A model generated the notes under the pieces. The model searched no databases and was not told the DNA's origin. It saw only the letters and a program-made list of their open reading frames with translations. The translations under genes and the position numbers were made by a program. This document shows, in pieces, positions 3,576 through 21,376 of a stretch of DNA of 64,000 nt. This DNA is from Microbacterium aurum (GTDB taxonomy: Bacteria; Actinomycetota; Actinomycetes; Actinomycetales; Microbacteriaceae), in contig NZ_JAFBCQ010000001.1 in assembly GCF_016907815.1 (NCBI RefSeq), positions 372,001 through 436,000 of the forward strand, given 5' to 3'. The first letter of the stretch is position 1. Every line of letters starts with the position of its first letter.

Positions 3576-3613
3576 CTAATCCCGTTTGATTTTACCAGAT
3601 TCTAACTGGCGCG

Positions 3614-4204
3614 TCACGCGAAATGCGCGAGGATACGCTGAGCGACTTCCTTCGGGCTGCTCGCAGCGACGTCAATCGCTACAACGTTCCAGCCCAGCGC
3701 CCGCAAGAAGTCTGCCGCCTCTCCATACAGCAGCGTTTGGAGGGCGGGAGTAGATCGCTCCTCGAAGTGTGTCAGCAATGCACGGGCATCTAGTCGCTTA
3801 GAGACGGTTTGAGGATCCGGAACGAGAATCGCGGTTAGCGTAGGCGGCGGTGCGAAAGAGTTGTACCGCCAGATCTCCTCTAGCGAAAGCCCATCAAGTC
3901 GTTGAAGAACTAGCGACGAGGGCACGTATCGGTCAGAGATCACAACGTCGCCCGCCTCAAGCGATGGCCGAATTACGCCGTCAATATGGTTCGCACGGTC
4001 AGCCGCAACGGCAAGCGCGCGACCGCGAGGCGAGAAGGCGGCGTGTTCAGCACGGATGAAGGCACCGAGCGGGGAGTCAGAGGGCTCCCGCGTGGCCCGA
4101 ACGGTCCGACCAGAGGTGCTGCTGACCAGCGCGGCGAGCTCACTGACCAGCGTCGACTTGCCTGCACCGTCCGGACCCTCGATGACTACGAACATGGTCG
4201 TCAC
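3614..4204 (-). CDS. tmk: thymidylate kinase-like nucleoside monophosphate kinase
   Basis: A 196-residue P-loop kinase. Walker A is GPDGAGKST (residues 10-18). ISDRYVPSSLVLQ matches the DRYxxSxxxxQ motif of dTMP kinases, and a short LID region follows. Length is close to stand-alone bacterial Tmk (about 205-215). It overlaps the radical SAM gene by 4 bp (ATGA), so the two are translationally coupled. A housekeeping tmk is not normally found in such a cassette, so this may be a second, specialised kinase feeding a nucleotide or acting on a modified nucleotide. Nucleotide specificity is not proven. Confidence 0.8.
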   Translation of the reverse strand: MTTMFVVIEGPDGAGKSTLVSELAALVSSTSGRTVRATREPSDSPLGAFIRAEHAAFSPRGRALAVAADRANHIDGVIRPSLEAGDVVISDRYVPSSLVLQRLDGLSLEEIWRYNSFAPPPTLTAILVPDPQTVSKRLDARALLTHFEERSTPALQTLLYGEAADFLRALGWNVVAIDVAASSPKEVAQRILAHFA

Positions 4205-5298
4205 ACTGCCCGTAGCGGGAGCAGTTCACGTGTAGCGGAGGGGACCGGGCAGAGCGAATCCACGCTGCCGATGAAGCCGCCGTCAGCGATCACCGCAGCG
4301 GGGCATCCCTTGCCGCAGGTGGTGTTCAGGGAACAGCTCCTACATGCCGAGTTGTTCCCCACGCTGTAGCGTTCGTGAAACCTGTAATCGTCGAGTGCTT
4401 TCGCGACGTCGTCGCTTAAGACATTTCCAACAATAAACTCTGCCGGATCGTGCCGCGAAACAGGATTCCGAGCAGCAAACACCAGATATGGACAAACTGC
4501 GGTTGTGCCGTCAGTGAAAACGTAGATGAGCTTGCCCGCATCGCAGCCGCCGAGTGGGAGCGTGTCGTTTGGAAACCGAATGTCGACGACCTGAAGCTCC
4601 GAAGAGTTGAAGCGAGCGGTGGCTTGCTTGATCTTCCGCATCATTACAGAAGGAGCCTCCAGGCGACCCTTGCTCTTGATGCCGCGACCGAAGGCGGACA
4701 GGGGGTTCATCAGCACGTACTTCGCGCCCACCTCAAGGGCGAACTCGCAAAGGGCAGCGAACTCGTCTGGCGTCGTGAGCGAGTTGGGTGTCGAGAGTAT
4801 TCCCTGAAGTAGGCCGGCAGCCGCAATCTTTCGCGTCGTCTCAAGCGTGGCGGCGAAGGATGCCTGATTGCCACGGAACTTTCCATGGGACTCCGGGCGA
4901 AACCCATCGAAACTGACGTTGATGTGGACGCCGCCGAGAGCCTTTAGCTCATCGATTTGCCAGTCATCCGTTAGGGTGGCATTCGTGCAGACTCCGACCG
5001 GGATACCCTCGGCGATCAGGTGCCGGCAAAATTCGAGGAATTCTGGGTGCTCAAACGGCTCACCGCCGGTGAGTGTGACACGTTCCACACTTGCTGCTCG
5101 CAATTGTGGAATGACGACATCAACAAAGTCGTCGATCGCCATGTCGCGTCCATTTCTCATCGACGAAACGAAGCAGTGAGCGCAATGCAAATTGCATCTT
5201 TCCGTGATCTGCACGAGCGCCTTTCGACTCCCATCATCGACCGAGGTTCGGAAATAGCACGAGTTGGCAGAGCTCTCGACAATCAGGCTGTTCTTCAT
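4201..5298 (-). CDS. radical SAM/SPASM protein
   Basis: A 365-residue enzyme. CNLHCAHC gives the CxxxCxxC cluster motif at C35, C39 and C42. TLTGGEPFEHPEF is the GGE SAM-binding motif. The C-terminal 110 residues carry a SPASM-like set of cysteines (CDAGK, CPYL, CRSCSLNTTCGKGC, LCPV) that should hold auxiliary Fe-S clusters. Proteins with this layout modify peptides or small substrates by radical chemistry. Its immediate partner is a thymidylate kinase. Prokaryotic viperins also pair a radical SAM enzyme with a nucleotide kinase, but viperins lack a SPASM domain, so this is a different type. No precursor peptide gene is evident next to it. Confidence 0.85.
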   Translation of the reverse strand: MKNSLIVESSANSCYFRTSVDDGSRKALVQITERCNLHCAHCFVSSMRNGRDMAIDDFVDVVIPQLRAASVERVTLTGGEPFEHPEFLEFCRHLIAEGIPVGVCTNATLTDDWQIDELKALGGVHINVSFDGFRPESHGKFRGNQASFAATLETTRKIAAAGLLQGILSTPNSLTTPDEFAALCEFALEVGAKYVLMNPLSAFGRGIKSKGRLEAPSVMMRKIKQATARFNSSELQVVDIRFPNDTLPLGGCDAGKLIYVFTDGTTAVCPYLVFAARNPVSRHDPAEFIVGNVLSDDVAKALDDYRFHERYSVGNNSACRSCSLNTTCGKGCPAAVIADGGFIGSVDSLCPVPSATRELLPLRAV

Positions 5299-5565: not shown

Positions 5566-5827
5566 TAATCCGAGCCGCCGCCCACGTTGCGCAGCCGTCC
5601 GCAGCCGGTGAAGGAACAGCCATAAGATGAGCCATCACGGACGCCTCGTCAGCCGATGCTCCAGAGAGACTCCTGCTCTCGGACGATGAGAACAACTCGA
5701 CACAGGCCGTGCGATTTGTGTCCATCGGCAATATCCCGAGAGTTCGCCCTTGAGGTTGCCCCCGAATCCCGGACACTGACCAGGCGGGATCCGCGTGTTC
5801 GCGGGCCTGTCAGGGAGGATGTCCGTG

Positions 5828-6145
5828 ATGGGCACGAGCAAGAAGAGGAAGTCGTATACGCCGGAGTATCGCCGTGAGGCGGCCCGGCTGGTGATCGACA
5901 CGGATCGCACGATCGCGGCGGTCGCCCGCGAGATCGGGGTCGGCGAGGCGCTGCTGGGCCGGTGGGTGCATACCGAGCGTGCCCGGACCGGTGACGGCGA
6001 GGCGGCGCCGCTGGATCTGGACGAGCGGGCCGAGCTGGAACGGCTGCGTCGTGAGGTGCAGGAACTGCGGATGGACAACGAGTTCCTGGGAAAAGCGGCG
6101 GCCTTCTTCGCGTCGAAGCAGAACCCGAGGAGCGGTTCGCGGTGA
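5828..6145 (+). CDS. IS3-family transposase OrfA (copy 1)
   Basis: Helix-turn-helix protein of about 105 residues. The likely start is ATG 5828, 9 nt after GGGAGG; the frame is open from 5795. The HTH is YTPEYRREAARLVIDTD...IAAVAREIGVGEALLGRWV, and a leucine-rich coiled segment follows (LERLRREVQELRMDNEFL) for dimerisation. It recognises the IS ends. An A-AAA-G slippery stretch at 6091-6095 lies where orfB is open in the -1 frame, so an OrfAB fusion transposase could be made by frameshifting. Confidence 0.9.
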   Translation: MGTSKKRKSYTPEYRREAARLVIDTDRTIAAVAREIGVGEALLGRWVHTERARTGDGEAAPLDLDERAELERLRREVQELRMDNEFLGKAAAFFASKQNPRSGSR

Positions 6146-7023
6146 TCGAGGCGGAGAAGGCCGGCAGCACGACGATGACGGTCACCCGGATGTGCCGTCT
6201 GCTGGGGGTGGACCGGCGGCGGTTCTACGAGTGGCGTGCCCGGCAGTCCGCGGGCCCCTCTGCGCGGCAGCAGCGGGACGCGGACCTCACCGTCCAGATC
6301 GCGGCGTTCCACGCCGCATCGGATGGCACCTACGGGGCGCCGCGGATCCACGCCGACTTGCAGGACGCCGGTGTCGCCGTATCGCGGAAGAAGGTCGCCA
6401 GCCTGATGCGGGACAAGAGGATCGCGGGTATCAGCCCCCGCACCTGGCACCCGCCGACCACCGTCCACGGGGATGACCCGTTCCCCGTCCCCGACCTCGT
6501 TGAGCGGCAGTTCGACCAGGGTGAGAGGGACCTGGCTTGGTTCTCGGACATCACCTATCTGCGCACCGGTGAGGGATGGGCATACCTGTGCGTCGTCCGC
6601 GACGGGCACACCCGCCGGGTCCTCGGACGCTGCGTCGCCGACAACATGCACACCGACCTCGTGGAGGCGGCACTGCGGCAAGCAGTCGCGCTCCGCGGTG
6701 CGCTGCCGCGGAAGGTGATCTTCCACGCGGACAGGGGCACCCAGTACACCAGCGGCCAGCTCGCGGACGCCGCGAGGGAGCTTGGGGTGCTCCGGTCGAT
6801 GGGCCGCACCGGCGTGTGCTGGGACAACGCTGCCGCCGAGTCGTTCTGGTCGATCTTCAAGAACGAGTACTACCACCGGCACGTGTTCGCCACGATCGAC
6901 GCTGCTCGCCGCGGCGCATACGCCTGGATCGACGGCTGGTACAACGCCCGCCGACGCCACTCCGGCATCGGCTACCTCAGCCCGCTAGAGTACGAACGCC
7001 GCCAGCTCGCGCTGGCAGCCTGA
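6142..7023 (+). CDS. IS3-family transposase OrfB, DDE integrase (copy 1)
   Basis: 293 residues, GTG start overlapping the orfA stop by 4 bp. An N-terminal HTH_21-like region (GAPRIHADLQDAGVAVSRKK) is followed by the rve catalytic core. The catalytic acidic residues lie in WFSDITYL (D), FHADRGTQYTS (D) and AAAESFWSIFKNE (E). The C-terminus YNARRRHSGIGYLSPLEYE is typical of IS3 OrfB. It catalyses excision and insertion of the element. It appears intact and is identical to the copy at 20443-21324. Confidence 0.95.
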   Translation: MIEAEKAGSTTMTVTRMCRLLGVDRRRFYEWRARQSAGPSARQQRDADLTVQIAAFHAASDGTYGAPRIHADLQDAGVAVSRKKVASLMRDKRIAGISPRTWHPPTTVHGDDPFPVPDLVERQFDQGERDLAWFSDITYLRTGEGWAYLCVVRDGHTRRVLGRCVADNMHTDLVEAALRQAVALRGALPRKVIFHADRGTQYTSGQLADAARELGVLRSMGRTGVCWDNAAAESFWSIFKNEYYHRHVFATIDAARRGAYAWIDGWYNARRRHSGIGYLSPLEYERRQLALAA

Positions 7024-7132
7024 CCAACCAACCACCTGTCCGGGATTCGGGGGCAACCTCACCTCGACTTGGCCACGCCATCGCGGGTCGGAGGATGACC
7101 GTCGAGGGTTCTAGTGACCGCACATCGACCAC

Positions 7133-8197
7133 CTATCGACCCTTCACGTAGTCCCACAACTTGCTCTCGCGAACGGTAGTCGTACCGATCAGTGACCCGA
7201 TCAACGAGCCGACCAACGAGGCAAGAACGATCGCAGCTGTGCGCAGTGCGAGGGTATGCATCTCGGTCGGAATGACGAGCGCGATAACCAGAACGCTCGC
7301 TCCCCACGAGATGACTGCGGCGGCAAGCGCCCATACGCCAGCTTCGGACACCTGCTGAAGGGTCATCACCGTGCGAGATGTGCCTGCGTGAAGGTTTGCT
7401 GCAATCTCAACCCGGCGTGCTCGCACAGCGACAGCTGCGATGATCAGGCCGACGATCAGGGCGACCGCGGGAGCGTAAAGCGTTGGGCGTTTGGCGTACT
7501 CGCGCGCACCTTCGAACGTGGTGCCAAATCTGGTGTTCAGCTGCGACACTTTCGGTTCGTCACTCGACTTCGCGTCCTTCGGAGGTGTCAGAGTCGATAG
7601 CAGCAGTTGCCTGGTGTCCCCCCGCTCCGGCCACACCTGGACCCAACATTCATCGAAGACACCATCCGTGGCATAAGTCGGCACCAACGTTGCCCAGCCA
7701 AAACCTGCACGTCGCCCATCGGAAGGGTAGTTGTACGTGCCCCGCACCGGGATCTCCCGGCCGTCTACAGCGATGGCACCGGTCCCGACGGCCTCGACAA
7801 CTGCGTCGGAGAAGTAGAGCCCTTCGCCGCTATCGCCAGCGCCGAGCACGCGAGCAAATGAGGGGGTACTGGTGTAGTGCTTGATCGGGGAAGCCGGCAG
7901 AACATCCAACACAGTGGCGACCTCTTCCCTCATCGCACCGGATGCAATGACGTCGGGGACAGCAGATAGCTCCTCGCACGCCTGACCATCGATACGACCC
8001 GTCAACGCCAAGGTCGTGATCGATGCTCCCCCAGCCCGGTAGTCGACGCCTTGCTTCACGAAGCCCGCAATCGTCAGAACTTCTAGGAGTATCAGTGCCG
8101 TGAGCAGGGCCGCGGCAAGTCCGGTAAGGACGCCGACGCGTGCGGTGCCCGAGGTCAGGTTGCGTGAAATTTCGCGCAGGAATGTTGTCACTCGCAC
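7133..8197 (-). CDS. FtsX/MacB-like ABC permease of the lactococcin-972-type cluster
   Basis: 354 residues. One N-terminal membrane segment (about 20-45) is followed by a large extracytoplasmic domain, then three C-terminal membrane segments (about 245-265, 285-310, 320-345), the FtsX/MacB-type layout. It is the last gene of the bacteriocin operon, 6 bp after the ATPase stop. With the ATPase and the adaptor it should form a MacAB-like complex for export of the bacteriocin or self-protection; lactococcin 972 clusters characteristically carry such a permease/ATPase pair. Only 71 bp separate its stop from IS copy 1. Confidence 0.75.
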   Translation of the reverse strand: MRVTTFLREISRNLTSGTARVGVLTGLAAALLTALILLEVLTIAGFVKQGVDYRAGGASITTLALTGRIDGQACEELSAVPDVIASGAMREEVATVLDVLPASPIKHYTSTPSFARVLGAGDSGEGLYFSDAVVEAVGTGAIAVDGREIPVRGTYNYPSDGRRAGFGWATLVPTYATDGVFDECWVQVWPERGDTRQLLLSTLTPPKDAKSSDEPKVSQLNTRFGTTFEGAREYAKRPTLYAPAVALIVGLIIAAVAVRARRVEIAANLHAGTSRTVMTLQQVSEAGVWALAAAVISWGASVLVIALVIPTEMHTLALRTAAIVLASLVGSLIGSLIGTTTVRESKLWDYVKGR

Positions 8198-8203
8198 GGA
8201 GAA

Positions 8204-8812
8204 CTAGTTCCCCTTCAGATATGACGTGAGGTCCAGATGCGCGTCACACGCGTCGCGCGTCTCCTCGTCGTGGGTCGCCACGATCACGATCGTTTCAGAA
8301 GAGACCACGTTTGAGAGCACGCGGTTTACAACGCGGGCCGTGGCCCGGTCGAGCTGCGCCGTTGGCTCGTCCACGAGCAGCAGATCCGGCGACACGGCTG
8401 TCGCACGCGCCAGCATCAAGCGCTGGGCCTCTCCCCCAGAGAGGTGCTTGAACTGCCGATCGGCAACGTGACTTAGCTCGAAGTCGTCTAGCAACTGTGC
8501 CGCGCGTTGGTCTGCCTCCTCACCCGTGAATCCCCTCGCGACGAACGGATAAGACACATGATCTACTGCGGTCCTGCGTGGAACACCGAACGGGTTCTGA
8601 AAAACCCAGCTAATTGAATCGACCTCGTCCCGAAGAACTCGACCTTCGGCGGGAGCGATCCATCCCGAAATTATGGCCATCAACGTACTCTTGCCGGATC
8701 CAGAGGCTCCGGTGATTGCGTAGCTGGTTCCGGGAGTGAACGTCCAAGTGAGCTCGTGGAACAGAGAAGCGTCGCCGTAAGCGTGTCCGACGTCCTCTAG
8801 GGCTAACCGCAC
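8204..8812 (-). CDS. ABC transporter ATPase of the bacteriocin cluster
   Basis: 202 residues, a stand-alone nucleotide-binding domain. Walker A is ITGASGSGKST (about 33-43), the Q-loop is SWVFQNPFG, the signature is HLSGGEAQRLMLARA, Walker B is LLLVDEPTAQLD, and the H-loop is IVATHDEET. It resembles MacB/LolD-type ATPases and the ATPases of lactococcin-972-type bacteriocin systems. The start overlaps the adaptor gene by 10 bp and the permease follows after 6 bp, so the three are co-translated. It powers the permease encoded immediately downstream. Confidence 0.9.
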   Translation of the reverse strand: MRLALEDVGHAYGDASLFHELTWTFTPGTSYAITGASGSGKSTLMAIISGWIAPAEGRVLRDEVDSISWVFQNPFGVPRRTAVDHVSYPFVARGFTGEEADQRAAQLLDDFELSHVADRQFKHLSGGEAQRLMLARATAVSPDLLLVDEPTAQLDRATARVVNRVLSNVVSSETIVIVATHDEETRDACDAHLDLTSYLKGN

Positions 8813-9843
8813 TCTTGATGCTCCTTGGGCACGGAGGACAGGACGGACGTCGGAGGTGTGGCATCAGCAAAGAGTACGAATGAGTTGCCGAACTCCGATC
8901 CAACGATCTTGACCGCATATGGCGAAGTGTCAGTGAAGACGCATCCATTGCCGTTGTCCAAGACCTGGACCGCCGTCGCCGGGACCGCCGCCACCTGCAC
9001 GGGCGTAGCTAGAACAGCCGTGCCTTTCAGGGTCACCGACGTGACGTTGTCCGAACCTCCCACAGCCTCCCGAAACAACGGTGACTTGCGTACGAGCCCT
9101 GCTGGCAGGTCCGTTGGCAGCTCGCCAGCGTCACCAAGAGCTAGCGGCTCGCCGAACGCATTGAGAAGCCTCGGCCCCGGGATTCGCCCTTCGGGTAGCG
9201 CCACAGGCGCGACCTCCACATCGGCACTGACCGAGGCGAGGAGTTGACCGGCGCTTACGTTCGATCCGAGGCCTATCTCGCATTTATCAACCTCGACTGC
9301 AGCGGCGGGAAGCCAGACGACCGCATCACGGGGCACCACATCCTTGACGTCTGCTCCCACACTCGAGGCAAGTTTGGAGAAGGCAGCCAGATCGCGGTAG
9401 GAGAGCGTTCCGTTCCCGTCGACGGCGTATCCGAGCCGCGCAAGCTCGGCCTCCAACGCTGACACGTCAGCCCCGTCATCACCCACCGACAAATCCCTCC
9501 ACAGCGGCACTGACGTAGACAGACTCACCAGTGGAACACCATCGAGCGTGACAGCCGACTTACCGGACTCTATCGACTCTCCCGGCCGACAACTCCACGC
9601 GGTGATGATGCCCGACCGTGAGACAGACACACCCTGTGGTGCGCCGACGGAGACCGCGATATCCACTGTGCGAGGGTCCGTGAAATCCTGCATCGTGACC
9701 GGAACGGTGCGCGCAGAACTAGAGGACTGAAGAACTTCCGGAGTGGTCGGCACGAAGAAGGTCAATGCGACCCCGGCGCCGATCGCGAGCCCCGAAACAA
9801 GCGCCACACCAGCGAATGCAAACCCAGATGCTTTAGCCTGCAT
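8803..9843 (-). CDS. membrane-anchored adaptor with peptidoglycan-binding-like domain
   Basis: 346 residues. One N-terminal membrane anchor (about 8-30) is followed by an extracytoplasmic region. Residues about 115-155 (LSVGDDGADVSALEAELARL...) are a peptidoglycan-binding-1-like helical domain, and flanking beta-rich parts resemble the lipoyl/barrel regions of MacA/HlyD-type adaptors (VSVSRSGIITAW, GSNVSAGQLLASV). The ATG overlaps the lipoprotein stop (TAATG), indicating coupling. In monoderms such adaptors work with MacB-like permeases; here the partner would be the downstream ATPase/permease. The function is inferred from architecture and context. Confidence 0.7.
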   Translation of the reverse strand: MQAKASGFAFAGVALVSGLAIGAGVALTFFVPTTPEVLQSSSSARTVPVTMQDFTDPRTVDIAVSVGAPQGVSVSRSGIITAWSCRPGESIESGKSAVTLDGVPLVSLSTSVPLWRDLSVGDDGADVSALEAELARLGYAVDGNGTLSYRDLAAFSKLASSVGADVKDVVPRDAVVWLPAAAVEVDKCEIGLGSNVSAGQLLASVSADVEVAPVALPEGRIPGPRLLNAFGEPLALGDAGELPTDLPAGLVRKSPLFREAVGGSDNVTSVTLKGTAVLATPVQVAAVPATAVQVLDNGNGCVFTDTSPYAVKIVGSEFGNSFVLFADATPPTSVLSSVPKEHQECG

Positions 9844-10502
9844 TAATGCGTGTGAGTGTAGCTAGTGTCTTGGTTGCACAGAGCAAAGGTCTGCTCGCCT
9901 CCTTCATCGATGAATGGAAACTTCATCGTTGGCGCATCCTCGAGGTACTTCTCGACCGTGTATGACTCAGGCACAGCGTGGTTGCGCACCAGGCAGTCGG
10001 TGAGGAGCTGTGTCTCCGGGATATTCTCCGGATTGCTCGTTTGGGCGCGATACAGTCGGCCAATCCACGGCTCGCCGCTCTGAACCTCGCACTTGCCCAT
10101 ACTGGCGTTTGCTGAATCACCGTCAACTTCGCCGACGTTCGACTCGTAGGATCCGTCCTTCTCGTTGTAGCTGGTGACCGTTATCCCCTGGCTGCTCAGG
10201 CAGTCTTTGAGCGACTGGAGCACCTGAGACCACTCCTGGTCAGAGATGTGACCATCCTGAAGAACACCACGGACTGCGTCCGTCTCACTCCGCTGCCATG
10301 CCTCCTGGTACTCGGCAGCAAATGGGCCGCTGAACGAAGGCATCCCCGAGTCGCCGTTCGTCGAAGCGTGCCCATCACCGTCGGTGCTCGCGCATCCACT
10401 TGCAAGCGCAATAGTGATCGCGCCGAGCGCTGCCAAAGACAGCGCTCGGCGCACGGCGGGCCCGGAGATCAATAGACGTACCAATACGCTTCGTTCCCCC
10501 AC
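9843..10502 (-). CDS. lipoprotein of the bacteriocin cluster, candidate immunity factor
   Basis: Up to 219 residues. A hydrophobic signal (ALSLAALGAITIALASGC) ends in a lipobox ASGC, so the mature protein is anchored at the outer face of the membrane. The first 34 bp of the longest frame overlap the bacteriocin gene; a TTG at 10472, overlapping the bacteriocin TGA, is an equally plausible start. The mature domain is acidic with four cysteines and no family I recognise. Its position directly after the bacteriocin precursor and before the transporter suggests self-immunity or maturation, which is inference. A strong hairpin lies within its signal-peptide codons. Confidence 0.7.
   Translation of the reverse strand: MGERSVLVRLLISGPAVRRALSLAALGAITIALASGCASTDGDGHASTNGDSGMPSFSGPFAAEYQEAWQRSETDAVRGVLQDGHISDQEWSQVLQSLKDCLSSQGITVTSYNEKDGSYESNVGEVDGDSANASMGKCEVQSGEPWIGRLYRAQTSNPENIPETQLLTDCLVRNHAVPESYTVEKYLEDAPTMKFPFIDEGGEQTFALCNQDTSYTHTH
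10421..10451 (-). promoter_or_regulatory. intra-operon stem-loop after the bacteriocin gene
   Basis: Perfect 11-bp inverted repeat, CGCCGAGCGCT (10421-10431) and AGCGCTCGGCG (10441-10451), with a 9-nt loop. It lies 18 bp beyond the bacteriocin stop and inside the lipoprotein signal-peptide codons. There is no U-run, so it is not a full terminator; it could stabilise the upstream bacteriocin mRNA or reduce expression of downstream genes. Confidence 0.6.
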
Positions 10503-10834
10503 GCCGTGGCGTTCTGGGTAGCTTGCGCCCAGATTCCCCCACCCTTGTCCCCAGAGCGAATAACCTGCCCAGTCGAGTTCTTGACACTCGAACGGTGCAG
10601 CAAGCTGCCGTGGTAGTAGCTGCTGTCGTTCGCGGTGTCAGACCCATTGATCATGGAGTGCACTCCGTAGTACATGCTCCCCCCGCCGACGGACGATCCA
10701 GTCACGTACGTGTTCGAGGCATAGTGGTTCGGCGCACCGCCGTAACCGTTGTTGTGCGCCGACGCGATGCCCGCGTTCCCCAAGACAAGAACGGCGGCAA
10801 GCACGGTGCCCGCTGCGATTTTGCTGATCTTCAC
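10469..10834 (-). CDS. lactococcin-972-family bacteriocin precursor
   Basis: 121 residues from a GTG at 10834, chosen because GGGAG lies just upstream and because the product then begins with a signal peptide (VKISKIAAGTVLAAVLVLGN, cleavage after AGIASA, about residue 26). The frame is open further upstream to 10927. The mature protein of about 95 residues ends with the family hallmark: YYHGSLLHRSSVKN, then GIWAQAT, then an aromatic C-terminus EAYWYVY. This is parallel to lactococcin 972 (YHHG...HSATV, GVWAKAT, FYYNFW), which binds lipid II and blocks septum formation. It is first in the operon with lipoprotein, adaptor, ATPase and permease. Secretion is expected via Sec. Confidence 0.85.
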   Translation of the reverse strand: MKISKIAAGTVLAAVLVLGNAGIASAHNNGYGGAPNHYASNTYVTGSSVGGGSMYYGVHSMINGSDTANDSSYYHGSLLHRSSVKNSTGQVIRSGDKGGGIWAQATQNATAWGNEAYWYVY

Positions 10835-10874
10835 GTTTCTCCCAACTTTCGGCGCTCGGACATGAAGAACGACT

Positions 10875-10898
10875 GGTTCGACCCACATGCTTCGAACC
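10875..10898. repeat. interrupted palindrome in bacteriocin leader
   Basis: Arms GGTTCGA (10875-10881) and TCGAACC (10892-10898), 7 bp perfect, separated by 10 bp. It lies 41-64 bp upstream of the bacteriocin start and so within the probable 5' leader. It is either a regulator operator or a leader hairpin. Confidence 0.5.
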
Positions 10899-10958
10899 CA
10901 CAAATCGTCGATCCTCAAACGTTGCACCCTCTATGTCGCGCCGGATCGGCACACTCGC

Positions 10959-10992
10959 ACGCTAGCAGCTACTTAGTCGGTGGTCCAACTAA
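10959..10992 (-). promoter_or_regulatory. candidate bacteriocin promoter with overlapping operator palindrome
   Basis: On the minus strand TTGGAC (10988-10983) and TAGCGT (10964-10959) are spaced by 18 bp, a plausible sigma-70-type promoter. A near-perfect palindrome covers the -35 hexamer: plus-strand arms TTAGTCGG (10973-10980) and CCAACTAA (10985-10992), 7 of 8 matches, with a 4-bp centre. A repressor bound there would block initiation; the TetR-type protein encoded upstream is the obvious candidate. The rest of the gap 10993-11280 shows no gene. Confidence 0.45.
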
Positions 10993-11280
10993 ATCGGCCG
11001 AACACTCCTTCTCATTCGGACGCGTCGGCACCACACACGCCGAGCGTCGACTCAAAGTCCAGACCGCCGCAAGGCGCAACCCTGGTTGTACGAGGTCCTG
11101 ACGTCGTAGCGGTTCGCACCATCCCATCGAGCTCGATCCTCAGGGAATCGGGGGCTCTTGAGTGAGCCCGCTCCAGTCGACGTCGGCCCGACTCGAGGCA
11201 TAGGGACGCGTCTTGACGACGCCACACCACGCTCCGAAGACGTCAGATACAGGGAGTCAGTTCACAGCCGCGCGCGTTGT

Positions 11281-11907
11281 CTACGCAGCACCATGCTCGC
11301 GTTGAGGCGACAGCAAGAGTCGAATCATCGGCTCGGCCGCGCGCACGCGGGCCGGCAAGGACGCCCATTTGTCTTCGAGACCAGCAAGCGTTTGCGCCCC
11401 AACAAACACCTCGTTGAGGAACTCCGCCATCTGCCCGATTGGAACATCGCCGCTAACACTCCGGTCCTCAACGCCATCGCGGAGAATCTCGGCAGCGACT
11501 AGCACCCAACTGGCGTAGGGAGTACGCGCTTCGTCTTCAACGTCGATCGCCGGCTGCACAGCTAGCCGAATGCCTGCCTGCACGAGCTCATCCGTCGCAA
11601 CAAGCTCAGCAAGTCCGCTGAACAGTCGGATCAGTCTCTCGAGACCCCGGCGTTCGCTTTCCGTGACTCGCAGCAGTACGCCAGCCATCCGCGCTTGTTG
11701 CTCTTCCAGCACGGCCTTCGCGACATCAGCCTTGTTCCCAAAGTGGAAGTAGAGGGAGCCTTGACTGATTCCCGCCTCGTCCGCGATGTCCTTCAGACGA
11801 GCGTCAGCATAGGGAACTCTGGAGAAGACAGTGCCCGCGGCGACTAACAGGGCCTGCCGGGTCAGCAGTCCGTGCGCGCGTTTCCGCTTCTCATCCGCCT
11901 CCGGCAT
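11281..11907 (-). CDS. TetR-family regulator, gamma-butyrolactone-receptor-like
   Basis: 208 residues. The N-terminal HTH (about 13-60) reads RQALLVAAGTVFSRV...LKDIADEAGISQGSLYFHFGNK, very close in style to the ArpA/ScbR butyrolactone receptors (GALYFHF-SK). The C-terminal ligand domain keeps the receptor-like pattern (LVQAGIRLAVQP, then YASWVLVAAEILRDG, FVGAQTLAGLEDKWASL). It is transcribed divergently from the AfsA-like gene, the classic scbR/scbA arrangement, and GAGGAGG precedes its start. The expected role is a repressor released by a butyrolactone signal, acting on its own promoter, the synthase and possibly the bacteriocin operon. The ligand is inferred. Confidence 0.8.
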   Translation of the reverse strand: MPEADEKRKRAHGLLTRQALLVAAGTVFSRVPYADARLKDIADEAGISQGSLYFHFGNKADVAKAVLEEQQARMAGVLLRVTESERRGLERLIRLFSGLAELVATDELVQAGIRLAVQPAIDVEDEARTPYASWVLVAAEILRDGVEDRSVSGDVPIGQMAEFLNEVFVGAQTLAGLEDKWASLPARVRAAEPMIRLLLSPQREHGAA

Positions 11908-12083
11908 CCCACCTCCTCAATGCCTGCAAGGCTAGCAACTCGCTCCGACGGACTCAGCATCCGGACGCACACGAAGCGAGCATCGCCGCCGAGACCTTCG
12001 ATTCCTCAGCGTGGTGATCCGCCGACTTGCCACCATCGGGACCGACACTTCGGATCCGTCGCGTCAATGTGCCCAGGCAGATT

Positions 12084-12175
12084 CGCAACCTTGACGGTTA
12101 CGCGGCTCCAACGCGAAACTGGCCCGGCTAGCTAGACGCCGACGTGCGGCGGTCTGCCTCAATTCGCATAGCGAA
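12084..12175. promoter_or_regulatory. candidate operators in the tetR/afsA divergent region
   Basis: The 289-bp divergent region contains an imperfect palindrome at 12084-12102 (arms CGCAACC and GGTTACG around TTGAC, one mismatch) and a perfect 5-bp one at 12163-12175 (TTCGC-ATA-GCGAA), 22 bp before the first possible AfsA-like start. Butyrolactone receptors normally bind semi-palindromic sites in this position. Binding is not demonstrated and neither site is a clean match to the published autoregulatory-element consensus as I recall it. Confidence 0.35.
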
Positions 12176-12226
12176 ACAGGACGCAGGGAGAATGATTTGT
12201 ACCCATATCCGCGGGAGTCCCATTTG

Positions 12227-13030
12227 ATGAATGGGGAATCTCCAGCGTCAATCCAACGCGATGTGCACAAGTCACAGCCGACGCATGTATGGATTCACTC
12301 ACCGAGTGAGACCCCACCTCACAAGATGGAGGTGTCATACCGATTGCCCGAGGAACGTGGGCACCCGAGTTTCACGGACCTCATGGAGGTTCAACGGCAG
12401 GCAGGCCTAGCGCAAGTTCATCGGCAGCTCGACATCCCGCACTCGCAGGTGTTCGTGCTCGATCGGATTGAGTTGGGCTTCGCGACCTCGTCGCCATACG
12501 CGCAATATCCGAGCGAAGGACGGGTTGCCGCATTCGTTCGCGCCGAAGAGCGCGCCGCGCGCAAGCCGCGGGCAGCCCAGCAAGAATTCGAGTTCACGGA
12601 CGGAGAAGCGGTGTTTGCCCGCGGTAGTTCAATCGCCAGATTCCTATCGCCGGAGATCTATAGACGTCTTCGCGTAATGGGGTCGAACCTAGATACCTAT
12701 GCCGGCTTCGGCTACTCTAACTCGACGATGCAGTTTCCGGTCATGCCGAACAGGAACGACCCAGCGCTGTACGATCACGAGTCGGACCACATAACTGCGA
12801 TGGCCGTCGTGAGGAGCATCGAAGACACAGTGCGGGGGCTCTCCGAGAGACGCCCACTACTGAGGCGCCTCGCTCTGGCCTTTGAGTCATACCTAGAGCC
12901 GGATCAGACCCCCATTTTGTCGCTGACCCCGAAAATGGATGGCACGTTTTTAGCGTTGGTCGATCAGGGTGGTGTACCACGCGCTAGGGGAACCGTAGAG
13001 CTATTTCTTGAGTCAGGTGGAGGGCAATGA
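12227..13030 (+). CDS. AfsA-like gamma-butyrolactone synthase (A-factor hotdog domains)
   Basis: 267 residues from ATG 12227 (GGGAG nine bp upstream); an in-frame TTG at 12197 with AGGGAG is the alternative start (277 residues). The region LMEVQRQAGLAQVHRQLDIP, followed by FVLDRIELGFA, matches the first hotdog repeat of AfsA/ScbA proteins, whose conserved Glu sits in this (E..RQAG) helix. A second, weaker repeat occupies the C-terminus. AfsA enzymes condense a beta-ketoacyl donor with dihydroxyacetone phosphate in butyrolactone synthesis. It is somewhat shorter than Streptomyces AfsA (about 300). The stop overlaps the next start (ATGA), coupling it to a reductase. Confidence 0.75.
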   Translation: MNGESPASIQRDVHKSQPTHVWIHSPSETPPHKMEVSYRLPEERGHPSFTDLMEVQRQAGLAQVHRQLDIPHSQVFVLDRIELGFATSSPYAQYPSEGRVAAFVRAEERAARKPRAAQQEFEFTDGEAVFARGSSIARFLSPEIYRRLRVMGSNLDTYAGFGYSNSTMQFPVMPNRNDPALYDHESDHITAMAVVRSIEDTVRGLSERRPLLRRLALAFESYLEPDQTPILSLTPKMDGTFLALVDQGGVPRARGTVELFLESGGGQ

Positions 13031-13845
13031 GACCGGCACGTGTTGCGCTCGTCACGGGAGCGTCGGGTGGAATTGGGCGAGCGATCGCCATGCGCCTCGT
13101 CGATGACGGGTACGTGATCCTGGCTCACTACAACCGCGACGCGAACGGCGCAGCGCGGCTGAGTACGGAGCTGAAGGCGAGCGGTGGGGTTCACCACTCG
13201 ATCCAAGCCAACCTGAGCCAACCAAGCGGATTGGCCTCATTGACAAAAGAGGTGCGTCGGTTCCTAGACCGCCACCCCGCATCCGCGCTCAAAGCCATTG
13301 TAAATAACGCGGGCGTAATGGTCGGTCCGAGCTGGGAATCAATCACAGTCGAGGATTACGACCGCTTCCTCGATGTGAACACGCGCGCGCCTTTCTTCCT
13401 CATTCGGGAGCTGGCGCAGTCGATGCCGCGCGGGGGAAGCATCGTCAACATCTCATCGGCGTCCGCTCACATTTCGAGTCCCGCGAACATCGCTTACGCG
13501 ATGAGTAAGGCAGCCCTCGAATCGATGACAAAGAACTTCGCTGCAGCGCTCGCCATTCGCGGCATTCGCGTGAACGCAGTCATTCCCGGCTATACAAACA
13601 ACGGCCACGCGGCATTCAGCGATCCAAGTAGCCTGAAATACATGGCCTCCGCCGCCCCACTCGGTGACGTTGGTTCGCCTGCCGACGTCGCGCACGCTGT
13701 GAGCTTTCTCGTTTCGGACCTCGCTGCGCGCACTACGGGTAGCCTGCTCGATGTCAGCGGCGGTACTACGCTCAGCCCCAGAACCTCGCAGATCGGAAGC
13801 GTATCGGAACTGGCCCCGAGATCTGATGCGAGAGCAACCTCCTAG
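13027..13845 (+). CDS. SDR-family NAD(P)-dependent reductase, butyrolactone biosynthesis candidate
   Basis: 272 residues, classical short-chain dehydrogenase. The cofactor motif is TGASGGIG (about 10-17), the structural motif is NNAGV, and the catalytic Ser (NISSASAH) and YAMSK (Tyr/Lys) are present. A PGYTNNG loop follows, and the C-terminus has the usual SGG pattern (LLDVSGGTT). It is translated from an ATGA overlap with the AfsA-like gene. In Streptomyces a reductase next to afsA/scbA reduces the butenolide or the 6-keto group. A similar role here is inferred from context, since SDR enzymes are otherwise generic. Confidence 0.8.
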   Translation: MRPARVALVTGASGGIGRAIAMRLVDDGYVILAHYNRDANGAARLSTELKASGGVHHSIQANLSQPSGLASLTKEVRRFLDRHPASALKAIVNNAGVMVGPSWESITVEDYDRFLDVNTRAPFFLIRELAQSMPRGGSIVNISSASAHISSPANIAYAMSKAALESMTKNFAAALAIRGIRVNAVIPGYTNNGHAAFSDPSSLKYMASAAPLGDVGSPADVAHAVSFLVSDLAARTTGSLLDVSGGTTLSPRTSQIGSVSELAPRSDARATS

Positions 13846-14719: not shown

Positions 14720-16368
14720 CCTGGATCGTGTCACCGTCGGGTGATTTCGCGGGTTGAGGATCGTTGAGGCTTGATTTTCCGGGGGTGTTGGTGCCTCGTG
14801 CGGGGCACTAACGGCGTCGATCTAGACTCGCTCGGTGGGGTGGTTCGTGCGGAAGGTGCGCACCGCGTCGGGTGCGACGGCGGTGCAGATCGCGTCGAAG
14901 ACCCGTGGTGTGCGGACGATCGTGGAGCACCTCGGCTCCGCGCACGACGATGAGCAGCTCGCGGTGCTGGTCGCGATCGCGCGGGAGCGGATCGCGGAGC
15001 TGGCCGGGCATGTCCCGTTCGATCTGGACGGGCTGGGCGCGACGCCGCCGGCCACGACCGCGCCGACGGTGACCGGGTCGAGGTCCAGGTTGTTGTGGGA
15101 TGTCCTCGAGGACGCCTACGCCCGTCTCGGGTTCGACGCGGTCGGCAACGACACATTCAAGAAGCTGGTCCTGGCCCGCGTCGTCGAGCCGACCAGCAAG
15201 GCGGACACGCTGCGGGTGTGGGACGAGCTCGGTGTCCCGGGTGCGCCGTCGCTGTCGACCGTGTGGCGGACCCTCGCCCGCAGCGTTGAGCAGGACTGGC
15301 GGTCGAAGATCGCCGCCGCAGCCTACGCGCATGCGACCCGATCTGGCCCGCTCACCGTCGTGCTCTACGACGTCACCACCCTCTACTTCGAGGCGGAGCG
15401 TGAAGACAAGCTCCGCAAGGTCGGGATGAGCAAAGAGCGCCGCGTCGACCCGCAGATCCTCGTCGGCCTCCTCGTGGACCAGGGCGGGTTCCCCCTCGAA
15501 GTCCACGAGTTCGCGGGCAACAGGGGCGAGACTCTCACCCTGCTGCCCGTCCTCGACCAGTTCCGCGAACGTCACTCCGCGACCGAGGTCGTGGTCGTCG
15601 CGGACGCCGGCATGCTGTCCGCAGCGAACCTGAACCGGCTGGAGGACGCCGGGTTCGGTTTCATCGTCGGCTCCCGCACCTCCTCCGCGCCATACGATCT
15701 CGCCGAGCACTACGCGACCGTCGGGAACATCGTCACCGATGGGGAGACGGTCGAGACCACCCGAACCATGGGTGCGGGTGTGAACGCGCGGGAGCGGCGA
15801 GTGGTGTGGCAGTACTCCCACAAGCGGAAGATCCGCGACAACATCACGTTGAACAAGCAGATCGAACGCGCCGAGCAGATCGCTGCCGGCACCCGCCCGG
15901 CGAAGAAGGACCGGTTCGTCACCCTCGGCACCAAGCCCGGCGTGAACTGGGCAAGAGTCGAGAAGGCCCGCGAATACATCGGCCTCAAGGGGTACGTCAC
16001 CAACCTCAGCACCGCGACGGCTTCCGCTGCAGAGATCGTGGCGGCCTACCATGACCTGTTCCAGGTCGAGGCGACGTTCCGGATGGCAAAGACCGACCTG
16101 CGGGCGAGGCCGATGTTCGCGTCGACCGCGGACTCGATCCACGCGCACCTCACCGTCGTGTTCTGCGCTCTCGCGATCAGCCGGCACCTCTACAAGACCA
16201 CCGGCGTGACGGTCCGCCGTATCGTCCGCGCGCTGCGCCCGCTGCGTGACGTCACGATCACCATCGACGGACACGAACTCACCGCGACCACCCCGCCAAC
16301 GGGGGAAGCCGCCGACATCATCGCCGCACTCCGGCCGGGCGTGGGGCACTAAACTGACACGATCCAGG
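14720..16368 (+). mobile_element. IS1634-like insertion sequence
   Basis: 1649 bp. Terminal inverted repeats are CCTGGATCGTGTCA (14720-14733) and its complement (16355-16368). It is flanked by the 5-bp direct repeat CCAGA (14715-14719 and 16369-16373). One transposase gene occupies nearly all of it. The insertion splits a minus-strand gene. Confidence 0.9.
14835..16352 (+). CDS. IS1634-family transposase
   Basis: 505 residues, GTG start. DDE transposase of the IS4 superfamily, IS1634 type. VLYDVTTLYFEAE carries the first Asp, VVVVADAGMLS the second, and the C-terminal YHDLFQVEATFRMAKTDL has the YREK-like motif (here with Glu) typical of IS4-group enzymes. Length and layout match full-length members (about 500-550), so the enzyme appears intact. 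Confidence 0.9.
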   Translation: MGWFVRKVRTASGATAVQIASKTRGVRTIVEHLGSAHDDEQLAVLVAIARERIAELAGHVPFDLDGLGATPPATTAPTVTGSRSRLLWDVLEDAYARLGFDAVGNDTFKKLVLARVVEPTSKADTLRVWDELGVPGAPSLSTVWRTLARSVEQDWRSKIAAAAYAHATRSGPLTVVLYDVTTLYFEAEREDKLRKVGMSKERRVDPQILVGLLVDQGGFPLEVHEFAGNRGETLTLLPVLDQFRERHSATEVVVVADAGMLSAANLNRLEDAGFGFIVGSRTSSAPYDLAEHYATVGNIVTDGETVETTRTMGAGVNARERRVVWQYSHKRKIRDNITLNKQIERAEQIAAGTRPAKKDRFVTLGTKPGVNWARVEKAREYIGLKGYVTNLSTATASAAEIVAAYHDLFQVEATFRMAKTDLRARPMFASTADSIHAHLTVVFCALAISRHLYKTTGVTVRRIVRALRPLRDVTITIDGHELTATTPPTGEAADIIAALRPGVGH

Positions 16369-16704
16369 CCAGAGCATGAGAATGAGTATCTCCTTCGCAC
16401 CCTCGGCATCAGCAATCTCCTCACACTCCGATCGGAGCCGTCCACTTGCTTCGCGAACTTTGCGTGGTGCAGTTTTGCTGAGCGATTGAAACCAGAGCCG
16501 CAGATTCTCTCGAAGCTGTTCTCGATCTCCACGGAGCGTACGCGCCTTGTCGAAGGTGAATACTCGCCACGCGATGAGGACGGACGTTGCCGCGATGAGG
16601 ACGGCAAGGGCCGCATTGAGGCCGTCCAGCCATGACGGAGAGTTGCTGTCGTCGATTGCCTGCACGAGCGCAGCAGCGCACGAGAGCAGATCTGAACACG
16701 CCAT
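16369..16704 (-). pseudogene. N-terminal part of a membrane protein gene split by the IS1634-like element
   Basis: 112 codons from ATG 16704. There is a predicted membrane segment (AALAVLIAATSVLIAWRVFTF) at about residues 31-51, then a charged, coiled-coil-like helix (RTLRGDREQLRENLRLWFQS...). The reading frame runs into the IS end and then 16 codons of IS sequence. In the uninterrupted arrangement the frame continues MLWAQEMLGES into 14714-14421. The protein would be a small inner-membrane protein of unknown function with a cytoplasmic basic tail. Confidence 0.65.
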
Positions 16705-16733
16705 GAGGCGAACCTATCGGGTCGGACACGCTA

Positions 16734-17866
16734 GTGTGTTGCACCGCTAATTCATTTCTAGTTTTGTAGAATGGAGTATGTCGCGACGAGGACCTGTGCT
16801 TCCCGAGCTGACCCTCTCGGATGTGGAGCGTGATCAGCTGGAGCGGTGGGTGCGTCGCCGCAAGTCGGCGCAGGATCTCGCTCTGCGTTCGAGGATCGTG
16901 CTGGAATGCGCGACGGGCAGCTCCAACTCCGAGGTATCCAGGCGGCTGTTGGTGTCATTGCCCACGGTGCGCAAGTGGCGGACCCGGTTCCTTGAGCAGC
17001 GTCTCGATGGGCTCGTCGACGAGCCGCGGCCGGGACGGCCGCCGCTGATCGGAGTGGACCGGGTTGAGCAGGTCATCGTCGACACTCTGGAATCGACCCC
17101 GAAGAATGCGACGCACTGGTCGAGGGCGAAGATGGCCGAACGTTCCGGGCTGTCGCGCTCGACGGTGGGGCGGATCTGGAAGGCATTCGGACTCAAGCCC
17201 CATCTGGAGGAGGGTTTCAAGCTCTCCAACGACCCATTGTTCACGGAGAAGGTCTACGACATCGTCGGGCTCTACCTGAACCCGCCGGAGTCTGCCGTCG
17301 TGCTCAGCGTCGACGAGAAGAGCCAGGTGCAGGCGTTGGCCCGCTCGCAGCCCGCGTTCCCGCTGATGCCGGGCGTCCCCGAGCGGCGCACGCACGACTA
17401 TGTCCGGCATGGCACGACGAGCCTGTTCGCCGCGATGAACGTCGCCGACGGCACGGTGATCTCCTCGGTGCATCGCAAGCACCGCTCGGTTGAGTTCAAG
17501 AAGTTCCTGACCAAGATCGACAAGAACGTTCCCGAACACCTCGACGTGCACGTCGTCTGCGACAACTACTCCACGCACAAACATCCGACTGTGAAGGCGT
17601 GGCTGGAGAAGCATCCCCGGTTCCACATGCACTTCACCCCGACGTACTCCTCCTGGATCAACCAGGTCGAGCGGCTCTTCGCCGAAGTCACCCGCGACCT
17701 GTTGCAACGCTCCGACCACCGCAACGTTCAGTCCCTGGAGAGAGACCTCCGCGACTGGGTGAAAGCCTGGAACGAGAACCCGAAACCATTCATCTGGACC
17801 AAGACCGCCGAAGACATCCTCGACTCCATCGCCCGATACCTGAAACGAATTAACGGATCAGGACAC
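16734..17866 (+). mobile_element. IS630-family insertion sequence
   Basis: 1133 bp between duplicated TA dinucleotides (16732-16733 and 17867-17868), the target used by IS630/Tc1 elements. Imperfect inverted repeats of about 30 bp begin GTGT at both ends and share TAATTC-TTTC blocks. A single transposase fills it. Confidence 0.88.
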
Positions 17867-17869
17867 TAG
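16778..17869 (+). CDS. IS630-family transposase
   Basis: 363 residues, ATG start. Two N-terminal HTH units (SNSEVSRRLLVSLPTVRKWR and AKMAERSGLSRSTVGRIWKA) are followed by the DDE catalytic domain. The catalytic residues are LSVDEKSQ (D), VVCDNYSTH (D) and SSWINQVERLFAEV (E). The layout is typical of full-length IS630 enzymes. The stop codon TAG is made of the duplicated TA plus the first flanking base, so the IS itself does not encode a stop. Confidence 0.93.
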   Translation: MSRRGPVLPELTLSDVERDQLERWVRRRKSAQDLALRSRIVLECATGSSNSEVSRRLLVSLPTVRKWRTRFLEQRLDGLVDEPRPGRPPLIGVDRVEQVIVDTLESTPKNATHWSRAKMAERSGLSRSTVGRIWKAFGLKPHLEEGFKLSNDPLFTEKVYDIVGLYLNPPESAVVLSVDEKSQVQALARSQPAFPLMPGVPERRTHDYVRHGTTSLFAAMNVADGTVISSVHRKHRSVEFKKFLTKIDKNVPEHLDVHVVCDNYSTHKHPTVKAWLEKHPRFHMHFTPTYSSWINQVERLFAEVTRDLLQRSDHRNVQSLERDLRDWVKAWNENPKPFIWTKTAEDILDSIARYLKRINGSGH

Positions 17870-20034: not shown

Positions 20035-20128
20035 CGCGGGACAAGCGCTCGTGAGGTTGCCCCCGAATCCCGGACACTGACCAGGCGGGATCCGCGTGTT
20101 CGCGGGCCTGTCAGGGAGGATGTCCGTG

Positions 20129-20446
20129 ATGGGCACGAGCAAGAAGAGGAAGTCGTATACGCCGGAGTATCGCCGTGAGGCGGCCCGGCTGGTGATCGAC
20201 ACGGATCGCACGATCGCGGCGGTCGCCCGCGAGATCGGGGTCGGCGAGGCGCTGCTGGGCCGGTGGGTGCATACCGAGCGTGCCCGGACCGGTGACGGCG
20301 AGGCGGCGCCGCTGGATCTGGACGAGCGGGCCGAGCTGGAACGGCTGCGTCGTGAGGTGCAGGAACTGCGGATGGACAACGAGTTCCTGGGAAAAGCGGC
20401 GGCCTTCTTCGCGTCGAAGCAGAACCCGAGGAGCGGTTCGCGGTGA
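20129..20446 (+). CDS. IS3-family transposase OrfA (copy 2)
   Basis: Same product as the OrfA of copy 1: HTH protein of about 105 residues starting MGTSKKRKSYTPEYRREAAR, with a leucine-rich coil at the C-terminus. The same A-AAA-G slippery stretch is present before the stop. Confidence 0.9.
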   Translation: MGTSKKRKSYTPEYRREAARLVIDTDRTIAAVAREIGVGEALLGRWVHTERARTGDGEAAPLDLDERAELERLRREVQELRMDNEFLGKAAAFFASKQNPRSGSR

Positions 20447-21324
20447 TCGAGGCGGAGAAGGCCGGCAGCACGACGATGACGGTCACCCGGATGTGCCGTC
20501 TGCTGGGGGTGGACCGGCGGCGGTTCTACGAGTGGCGTGCCCGGCAGTCCGCGGGCCCCTCTGCGCGGCAGCAGCGGGACGCGGACCTCACCGTCCAGAT
20601 CGCGGCGTTCCACGCCGCATCGGATGGCACCTACGGGGCGCCGCGGATCCACGCCGACTTGCAGGACGCCGGTGTCGCCGTATCGCGGAAGAAGGTCGCC
20701 AGCCTGATGCGGGACAAGAGGATCGCGGGTATCAGCCCCCGCACCTGGCACCCGCCGACCACCGTCCACGGGGATGACCCGTTCCCCGTCCCCGACCTCG
20801 TTGAGCGGCAGTTCGACCAGGGTGAGAGGGACCTGGCTTGGTTCTCGGACATCACCTATCTGCGCACCGGTGAGGGATGGGCATACCTGTGCGTCGTCCG
20901 CGACGGGCACACCCGCCGGGTCCTCGGACGCTGCGTCGCCGACAACATGCACACCGACCTCGTGGAGGCGGCACTGCGGCAAGCAGTCGCGCTCCGCGGT
21001 GCGCTGCCGCGGAAGGTGATCTTCCACGCGGACAGGGGCACCCAGTACACCAGCGGCCAGCTCGCGGACGCCGCGAGGGAGCTTGGGGTGCTCCGGTCGA
21101 TGGGCCGCACCGGCGTGTGCTGGGACAACGCTGCCGCCGAGTCGTTCTGGTCGATCTTCAAGAACGAGTACTACCACCGGCACGTGTTCGCCACGATCGA
21201 CGCTGCTCGCCGCGGCGCATACGCCTGGATCGACGGCTGGTACAACGCCCGCCGACGCCACTCCGGCATCGGCTACCTCAGCCCGCTAGAGTACGAACGC
21301 CGCCAGCTCGCGCTGGCAGCCTGA
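20443..21324 (+). CDS. IS3-family transposase OrfB, DDE integrase (copy 2)
   Basis: 293 residues, identical in predicted sequence to the OrfB of copy 1, with the same three catalytic acidic positions (WFSDITYL, FHADRGTQYTS, AAAESFWSIFKNE) and the same 4-bp overlap with orfA. Apparently functional. Confidence 0.95.
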   Translation: MIEAEKAGSTTMTVTRMCRLLGVDRRRFYEWRARQSAGPSARQQRDADLTVQIAAFHAASDGTYGAPRIHADLQDAGVAVSRKKVASLMRDKRIAGISPRTWHPPTTVHGDDPFPVPDLVERQFDQGERDLAWFSDITYLRTGEGWAYLCVVRDGHTRRVLGRCVADNMHTDLVEAALRQAVALRGALPRKVIFHADRGTQYTSGQLADAARELGVLRSMGRTGVCWDNAAAESFWSIFKNEYYHRHVFATIDAARRGAYAWIDGWYNARRRHSGIGYLSPLEYERRQLALAA

Positions 21325-21376
21325 CCAACCAACCACCTGTCCGGGATTCGGGGGCAACCTCACTCGAGAGGAGCGG

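Follow-up and report, generated by a model that had tools for sequence, protein, structure and literature searches.

Can an AfsA/receptor autoregulator circuit, of the kind known in Streptomyces to control small-molecule antibiotics and differentiation, also govern a protein bacteriocin? The question is raised by positions 7133 to 13845 of a 64,000-nucleotide stretch of the Microbacterium aurum genome (contig NZ_JAFBCQ010000001.1, positions 372,001 to 436,000; hereafter the window), where genes for an AfsA-family synthase and a short-chain dehydrogenase/reductase (SDR) lie divergent from a TetR-type receptor gene and beside an operon for a lactococcin-972-family bacteriocin and its exporter. 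We consider it probable that this locus is an autoregulator circuit governing the bacteriocin. The computed evidence comprises the gene families, the operon layout, the predicted fold of AfsA, the recurrence of the linkage in other genomes, and receptor-type operators in the bacteriocin promoters of some relatives. The features are as follows, L035 and L036 being the nearest lactococcin 972 (Lcn972) operons; lengths are in amino acids (aa).

7133..8197, minus strand: permease of the bacteriocin exporter, 354 aa (49-51% identity to the L035/L036 Lcn972-operon permeases)
8204..8812, minus strand: ATP-binding cassette (ABC) ATPase of the exporter, 202 aa (PF00005, 1.4e-28; 68-71% identity to L035/L036)
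8803..9843, minus strand: membrane-anchored adaptor, 346 aa (46-47% identity to L035/L036; adaptor alignment)
9843..10502, minus strand: lipoprotein, possible immunity protein, 219 aa (53-55% identity to L036/L035; lipobox read from the sequence)
10469..10834, minus strand: precursor of a lactococcin-972-family bacteriocin, 121 aa, with a GTG start codon and, by eye, a signal peptide (PF09683)
10973..10992, no strand: candidate operator, unproven, palindrome TTAGTCGGTGGTCCAACTAA, upstream of the precursor
11281..11907, minus strand: ScbR/ArpA-like TetR receptor, 208 aa (NF041196 score near the cut-off; CprB and AvaR1 PDB matches)
12227..13030, plus strand: AfsA-family double-hotdog synthase with a variant second site, 267 aa (PF03756; predicted fold; residues)
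13027..13845, plus strand: SDR reductase, 272 aa (PF13561, 1.1e-47; 49-53% identity to the SDRs of sister modules)

AfsA enzymes join a beta-ketoacyl chain to a C3 unit. In the circuit that we propose, the AfsA of the window would condense units derived from acyl-acyl carrier protein (acyl-ACP) with C3 units, giving a diffusible signal of the lactone or furan type, and the SDR would reduce the product. The ScbR-like TetR would hold the bacteriocin operon, its own module, or both switched off until enough signal binds, whereupon the precursor, the lipoprotein (probably for self-protection) and the adaptor-ATPase-permease exporter would be made together and the bacteriocin secreted at high density. 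We infer the chemistry of the signal, repression and its relief, the dependence on density, the antibacterial effect and all regulatory steps in the window; there the circuit is, by analogy, the best reading. Within Microbacteriaceae, control of exporter-coupled secreted bacteriocins by AfsA/receptor circuits is well supported by computation in the relatives.

Gene families of the operon and the adjoining regulatory module

All eight genes named in a preliminary description, which was made from the letters of the window, are open and intact reading frames at these coordinates, and the SDR start codon (ATG, 13027) overlaps the AfsA stop. The complete lactococcin-972-type operon claimed there is present, with a PF09683 precursor followed by genes for the lipoprotein, adaptor, ATPase and permease. 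In a hidden Markov model (HMM) search the precursor reaches the Pfam cut-off for PF09683 (30.8 bits vs 22) but misses that of TIGR01653 (18.0 vs 32.1 bits). Its match to the lactococcin 972 structure 2lgn is weak (E 0.011 across 50 residues), and its own predicted structure is of low confidence (pLDDT 37). Seven database relatives (P0005-P0011) are all PF09683 proteins, and a relative with 75% identity carries the NCBI name 'lactococcin 972 family bacteriocin [Microbacterium sp.]'. Against TIGR03608, the Lcn972 exporter model, the ATPase scores 115 bits, under the cut-off of 255. For the lipoprotein, adaptor and permease no Pfam or NCBIfam model gives a score above cut-off; they share 43-58% identity with their counterparts in L035 and L036.

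The regulatory module agrees with its proposed identity at the level of family. AfsA passes the gathering score of PF03756, the A-factor hotdog family (37.5 vs 24 bits), and is the only AfsA found in its genome with the window protein as query. Its predicted structure is confident (AlphaFold pLDDT 91, pTM 0.90), and the top PDB matches of the model are acyl-ACP thioesterases (TM about 0.6), which we take to be double-hotdog folds as well. The TetR, described earlier as receptor-like, scores 144.2 bits to the ScbR family NF041196 (cut-off 150), the next family reaching 46 bits, and the A-factor and butenolide receptors CprB (1ui5, 2.7e-19) and AvaR1 (1.6e-16) are among its best PDB matches, over nearly the full length.

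Recurrent pairing and receptor-type operators in relatives

Co-occurrence of the two modules elsewhere had been set in advance as a test of the proposal, and the pairing does recur, far above random placement. Ten loci beyond the window, spread over nine genomes, have AfsA next to a related exporter operon: L023 (M. oxydans BEL4b), L025, L028, L042 (a Cellulomonas metagenome-assembled genome), L154, L155 (two tandem copies), L222, L243 and L244. At L023, L025 and L028, small secreted proteins and genes for a lipoprotein, adaptor, ATPase and permease adjoin a TetR-AfsA-SDR trio. The AfsA start at L243 overlaps the permease stop (ATGA), and neither a TetR match nor a precursor was recognised at that locus; L222 likewise has no TetR match. 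At L244 the AfsA gene comes after that of the permease, and receptor and precursor are divergently arranged. The curated ScbA/BarX model NF041195 (cut-off 200) is passed by the AfsA of the second L155 copy (207.8) and of L222 (215.6), and NF041196 by the TetRs of L155 (both), L154, L042 and L244. L155 is the most canonical case: both TetRs and the tested AfsA (second copy) pass the curated models, and autoregulatory elements (AREs) occur in the intergenic DNA between its divergent precursor and AfsA genes. The first-copy AfsA of L155 is split over two reading frames and looks broken (3237-4129), the second copy being open; at L154 (9961-10935) a transposase-like frame extends into the beginning of the AfsA one, and AfsA looks interrupted by eye.

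The exporter type recurs and the cargo differs. The small secreted proteins examined beside other AfsA modules, eight at L023, L025, L028 and L029 and five at L155, L244, L222 and L042, all fall short of every Pfam cut-off. A genome search by precursor sequence returned no genome with both precursor and AfsA except that of the window, a result that misleads as a measure of co-occurrence because the linked precursors examined belong to other families.

AfsA is rare in the genus, with 8 of 295 genomes positive by the window protein and 13 of 313 by an alignment query, own genome included. Among Microbacteriaceae, 9 of 42 AfsA loci (window excluded) have an adaptor of at least 150 bits no more than 10 kb away, against 0.19 expected (P 1.3e-13), adaptor counts being lower bounds drawn from the best matches listed, with at most 5-6 candidates scored in each genome. 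These 42 loci are 18 in the genus (own excluded) and 24 in other genera, L042 not being among them; in the genus count two G256 rows were merged, G272 contributed seven loci, G701 was dropped as a genome absent from the adaptor search, and G239, on a 5.4-kb contig, was scored as unlinked. Linked loci made up part of the training set of the adaptor model, hence a separate test on genomes outside that set, where 3 of 29 AfsA loci are linked vs 0.064 expected (P 3e-5). Random placement was the sole null, a generous one since islands cluster; overlapping genes and shared promoters argue that the pairing goes beyond mere clustering. Viewed from the exporter, 7 of the 61 strong genus adaptors (at least 150 bits to the adaptor model) among the matches listed are near an AfsA.

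A broader contig scan for AfsA gave adaptor matches at 5 of 79 loci (L039, L041 and L042 strong, L076 and L097 weak); the eightieth locus, L084, was too short. The pairing is seen in Microbacteriaceae, in Cellulomonas and, weakly, in Candidatus Lumbricidophila (L097), and not in the Streptomyces loci examined. In the AfsA tree, linked genes fall in three places (the trio clade; L042; L222/L154/L155), and the starred branches force six label changes, which implies that linkage was gained or lost repeatedly.

Operators were sought in the same loci. Nine regions of L155, L154 and L222, searched de novo for palindromes, gave AAACCGTTCGAACGGTAT at 18 columns, scoring 114 vs at most 65 in eight shuffles. 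By reading, it agrees with the AvaR1 consensus and is one base off the SfbR consensus, as these appear in the available portions of the sources (PMC5744401 and PMC7480387, respectively). Allowing one mismatch, the published AvaR1 pattern matches 6, 5 and 4 times in L155, L222 and L154, vs 0.23, 0.33 and 0.17 expected, corresponding to 3, 4 and 3 distinct sites; at each locus, none of 200 shuffles reaches the match count. Eight of the ten distinct sites are in or adjoining bacteriocin or AfsA promoters, L222 17843 and L154 11138 lying away from the circuit, and L222 10171 is within the called AfsA frame, upstream of the family match. Ranking with one locus left out was good and imperfect: a site off the circuit took the top rank in L154 and in L222, and the second rank in L155. 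The SfbR pattern is met, with a single mismatch, by an inverted repeat that lies at L244 between receptor domain and precursor (as many matches in 5 of 200 shuffles); this repeat falls inside the longest TetR frame called there, upstream of the part that matches the family. Published Streptomyces ARE patterns are accordingly found in bacteriocin or AfsA promoters of four linked genomes (L155, L154, L222 and L244). Of two control loci without AfsA, L036 has a single ARE-like site close to the precursor, a count equalled in 29 of 200 shuffles, and in L035 none was found.

A predicted operator of another type, CAATGTG..C..CTTGA, occurs in the Microbacterium trio lineage; it is unlike the ARE and is modelled on three hand-picked sites in regulator promoters, one of them from L023, so that L023 4075 and L030 are the only held-out matches. 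It stands between two divergent precursors of L023 with a score of 23.3 (next 13.0); L023 has two matches, one a training site, and two are reached in 0 of 200 shuffles. Another copy precedes the L030 TetR and is equalled in 9 of 200 shuffles. An earlier de novo run on 14 trio-type regions beat six shuffles each at 20, 22 and 24 columns (24 narrowly) and did not at 18. Upstream regions of the L023 precursor and AfsA share 17 of 20 and 19 of 24 columns (0 of 100 shuffles), while among eight other region pairs compared for shared elements none fell below 0.05 save L042 (24 columns, 0.04), whose element is weak (P 0.04-0.08). A direct link between receptor and bacteriocin in the relatives is thus what these sites predict.

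Some further features of the loci surveyed deserve mention. ARE-like sites scoring 17.7-24.4 occur in seven Arthrobacter/Pseudarthrobacter AfsA loci (L066, L092, L081, L106, L054, L073 and L089). Genes for Lsr2-type DNA silencers adjoin the AfsA module in two species (L023 8501-8941, L025 6579-6932). Small secreted proteins are encoded near weak adaptor, ATPase and AfsA genes at L076 (4780-5121, Frigoribacterium) and L097 (11309-11647, Candidatus Lumbricidophila), and by eye they presumably resemble beta/gamma-crystallin-type inhibitors. A response regulator (by Pfam at L243) and a sensor kinase (by eye) lie beside the AfsA-bearing bacteriocin operon at L243 (12734-14607) and L244 (4509-6418).

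Weighing the alternatives

A number of results weigh against a circuit of this kind. The AfsA of the window is below the NF041195 cut-off (65.1 vs 200 bits), as are those of L042, L243 and L244 (131.5, 124.1 and 144.6), and the window TetR is 6 bits short of NF041196. The promoters of the window hold no AvaR1-type site at up to two mismatches, SfbR-type matches in the window are at chance level, the Microbacterium-type operator has no standout match in its promoters, and its two promoter regions share no significant common element. Operator support is also absent at L243, L042 (AvaR1 pattern), L028 and the L025 precursor. No adaptor is present in the stretches around the trio-type modules L024, L027 and L029. 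Fifty-four of the 61 strong genus adaptors among the matches listed are not near a known AfsA, and no AfsA match occurs in the DNA fetched around L035-L038, the four nearest Lcn operons; the bacteriocin therefore does not need the circuit. The regulatory link drawn in the preliminary description has fared unevenly: some relatives have receptor-type operators in their bacteriocin promoters, and no operator was found in those of the window.

Some candidate elements in the window itself can be set beside these results. The palindrome at 10973..10992 is the sole match to its pattern in the window at up to three mismatches, and no second copy was found in the TetR-AfsA intergenic region; palindromes in the region upstream of the precursor are weakly above shuffles (as many in 16 of 200). 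A 14/16 match between the precursor (11060 region) and AfsA upstream regions had P 0.06 in 100 shuffles and is not claimed. Outside the window, two small secreted proteins are divergent from TetR-AfsA-SDR at L029 (7463-8235), with no exporter found nearby, and a weak TetR match (45.6 bits; L037 4971-5546) lies between two Lcn972-type operons that lack AfsA.

The strongest alternative keeps the logic and changes the signal: the trio-type AfsA would make a non-classical product, neither butyrolactone nor butenolide, sensed by its own receptor at a different operator. The residues of the second hotdog make this possible, though we hold it to be somewhat doubtful. In an alignment of 114 AfsA rows, 6 of them duplicates of loci fetched twice, a Glu/Arg pair that we take to be catalytic follows DHxxDHxPGM in the second hotdog of 72 of the 108 non-duplicate rows. 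The second hotdog of the window AfsA, DHESDHITAMAVVRSIEDT, is without the usual Glu and Arg that follow DHxxDH, and both are missing from all eight Microbacterium trio-type proteins (window, L023-L029), which counts against a classical circuit here; the same eight carry Glu at the Arg position, a replacement seen elsewhere in the alignment, duplicates aside, only in L044/L144 (Leucobacter chinensis). They also lie together on one side of a branch with 97/100 support (with P0002-P0004, L044 and the long-branched L158), in a tree whose bootstrap is unsettled, that has long branches, and that leaves out the later-found L243 and L244. The operator CAATGTG..C..CTTGA, unlike the ARE, fits a separate signal too. 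Yet the first-site E-x-x-R-Q is kept in all 114 rows (EVQRQ in the window). The exact pair is also absent from 28 of the 100 further non-duplicate rows, including the L155 AfsA, which keeps Glu, has Lys for Arg and yet passes NF041195, so the second-site change alone says little about the product; and the catalytic role of the pair is presumed. What stood of the earlier label 'butyrolactone-type' is the synthase family; a butyrolactone product is an assumption, and with the usual Glu and Arg gone the signal of the window need not be a classical butyrolactone.

It is also conceivable, and we think unlikely, that the two modules are mere neighbours which hitch-hiked into an acquired region rich in insertion sequences (ISs), the receptor controlling only its own module. 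The missing common operator in the window, the low GC and nearby IS copies described below, the many strong genus adaptors among the matches listed that are away from AfsA, and the exporter-less modules L024, L027 and L029 all suit mere proximity. It accounts poorly, however, for linkage at ten further loci, sometimes inside one operon, for the enrichment over random placement, and for operators inside the bacteriocin promoters of some relatives.

Finally, the secreted protein might lack antibacterial action, being for example a signal, an adhesin or a protein of the cell surface, so that the circuit does not control competition. This is improbable: the missed TIGR01653 cut-off, the weak match to lactococcin 972 itself and the eight and five secreted proteins without Pfam family beside other AfsA modules speak for it, but the precursor reaches PF09683, a 75%-identical protein bears the bacteriocin name at NCBI, and a lipoprotein and dedicated exporter share its operon.

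The circuit that we favour for the window can be widened. It is tempting to speculate, tentatively and at rather less than even confidence, that Microbacteriaceae and their kin have repeatedly recruited AfsA/receptor switches to control exporter-coupled bacteriocins, a large group of which most are undescribed, with operators in the toxin promoters, and that the Microbacterium lineage, window included, uses a new signal class with a rebuilt AfsA second site and an operator of its own.

Known circuits and the genomic neighbourhood

The Streptomyces AfsA/ArpA-type circuits (ScbA/ScbR, AvaR1, SfbR/SfbR2) resemble the window in synthase family, receptor family and adjacency of synthase and receptor, and their ARE operator, in the consensus given in the available portions of PMC5744401 and PMC7480387, is also found in some relatives of the window. 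They differ in that the AfsA of the window has a variant second site and its promoters no ARE that could be found; in addition, the Streptomyces circuits covered in those portions serve small-molecule antibiotics and differentiation, whereas here the neighbour is a secreted-protein bacteriocin with its exporter. The lactococcin 972 family (PF09683, TIGR01653, 2lgn), whose founding protein binds lipid II according to the abstract of PMC9964109, is matched in the Pfam family of the precursor and in an adjoining dedicated ABC exporter. It is unlike the window in that the latter misses the TIGR01653 and TIGR03608 cut-offs, and in that an AfsA/receptor neighbour is absent from the stretches around L035-L038 (the weak TetR match of L037 apart).

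The nearest precedent found is in Ruegeria pomeroyi DSS-3, where an AfsA gene lies in a cluster and is needed for diffusible killing and most cluster transcription; that cluster is on a roseobacter megaplasmid and encodes predicted biosynthetic proteins, and the available part of the paper names no lactococcin-972-type protein (PMC7426152). A 2016 review, in the passage at hand, gave the quorum-sensing evidence for Microbacterium as absent, 'not even bioinformatic' (PMC4748050). Two RiPP-like clusters (ribosomally synthesized and post-translationally modified peptides) and a butyrolactone cluster are listed for Frigoribacterium Leaf186, with no link drawn between them in the excerpt concerned (PMC12823222). 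No earlier report of a link between an AfsA circuit and a bacteriocin was found among the open-licence papers searched. If the circuit works, hormone-like control would extend to protein bacteriocins in this actinobacterial group, and the locus could offer a handle for switching on silent bacteriocins and a pointer to possible new signal molecules and secreted-protein families.

Two IS copies flank the locus, 100% identical over 1312 bp.

5751..7062, plus strand: first copy of an insertion sequence assigned by eye to the IS3 type; apparent target duplication of 3 bp, CCT
20052..21363, plus strand: second copy of the IS3-type element (again assigned by eye), identical to the first; apparent target duplication of 4 bp, CTCG

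The apparent duplications, read from the flanks, are separate for each copy and the outer flanks are unmatched, and on that ground a composite transposon bounded by both is rejected; the copies look like independent insertions, and the mobile IS-bracketed unit of the preliminary description is dropped. GC in the region is 0.58-0.62 vs 0.67 for 22000-64000, and no plasmid match to the region, to AfsA or to the precursor was found. Further transposase-like genes are visible by eye between the two copies (14835-20034). On the other side, a minus-strand run at 600-5298 holds a radical SAM gene (PADLOC pVip, 1.9e-15), a thymidylate-kinase-like gene, an exo/endonuclease-phosphatase gene, a 5'-nucleotidase gene (PDC-S08) and a gene whose DUF5787 match is below cut-off; judged by these matches, it is possibly a viperin-like defence locus.

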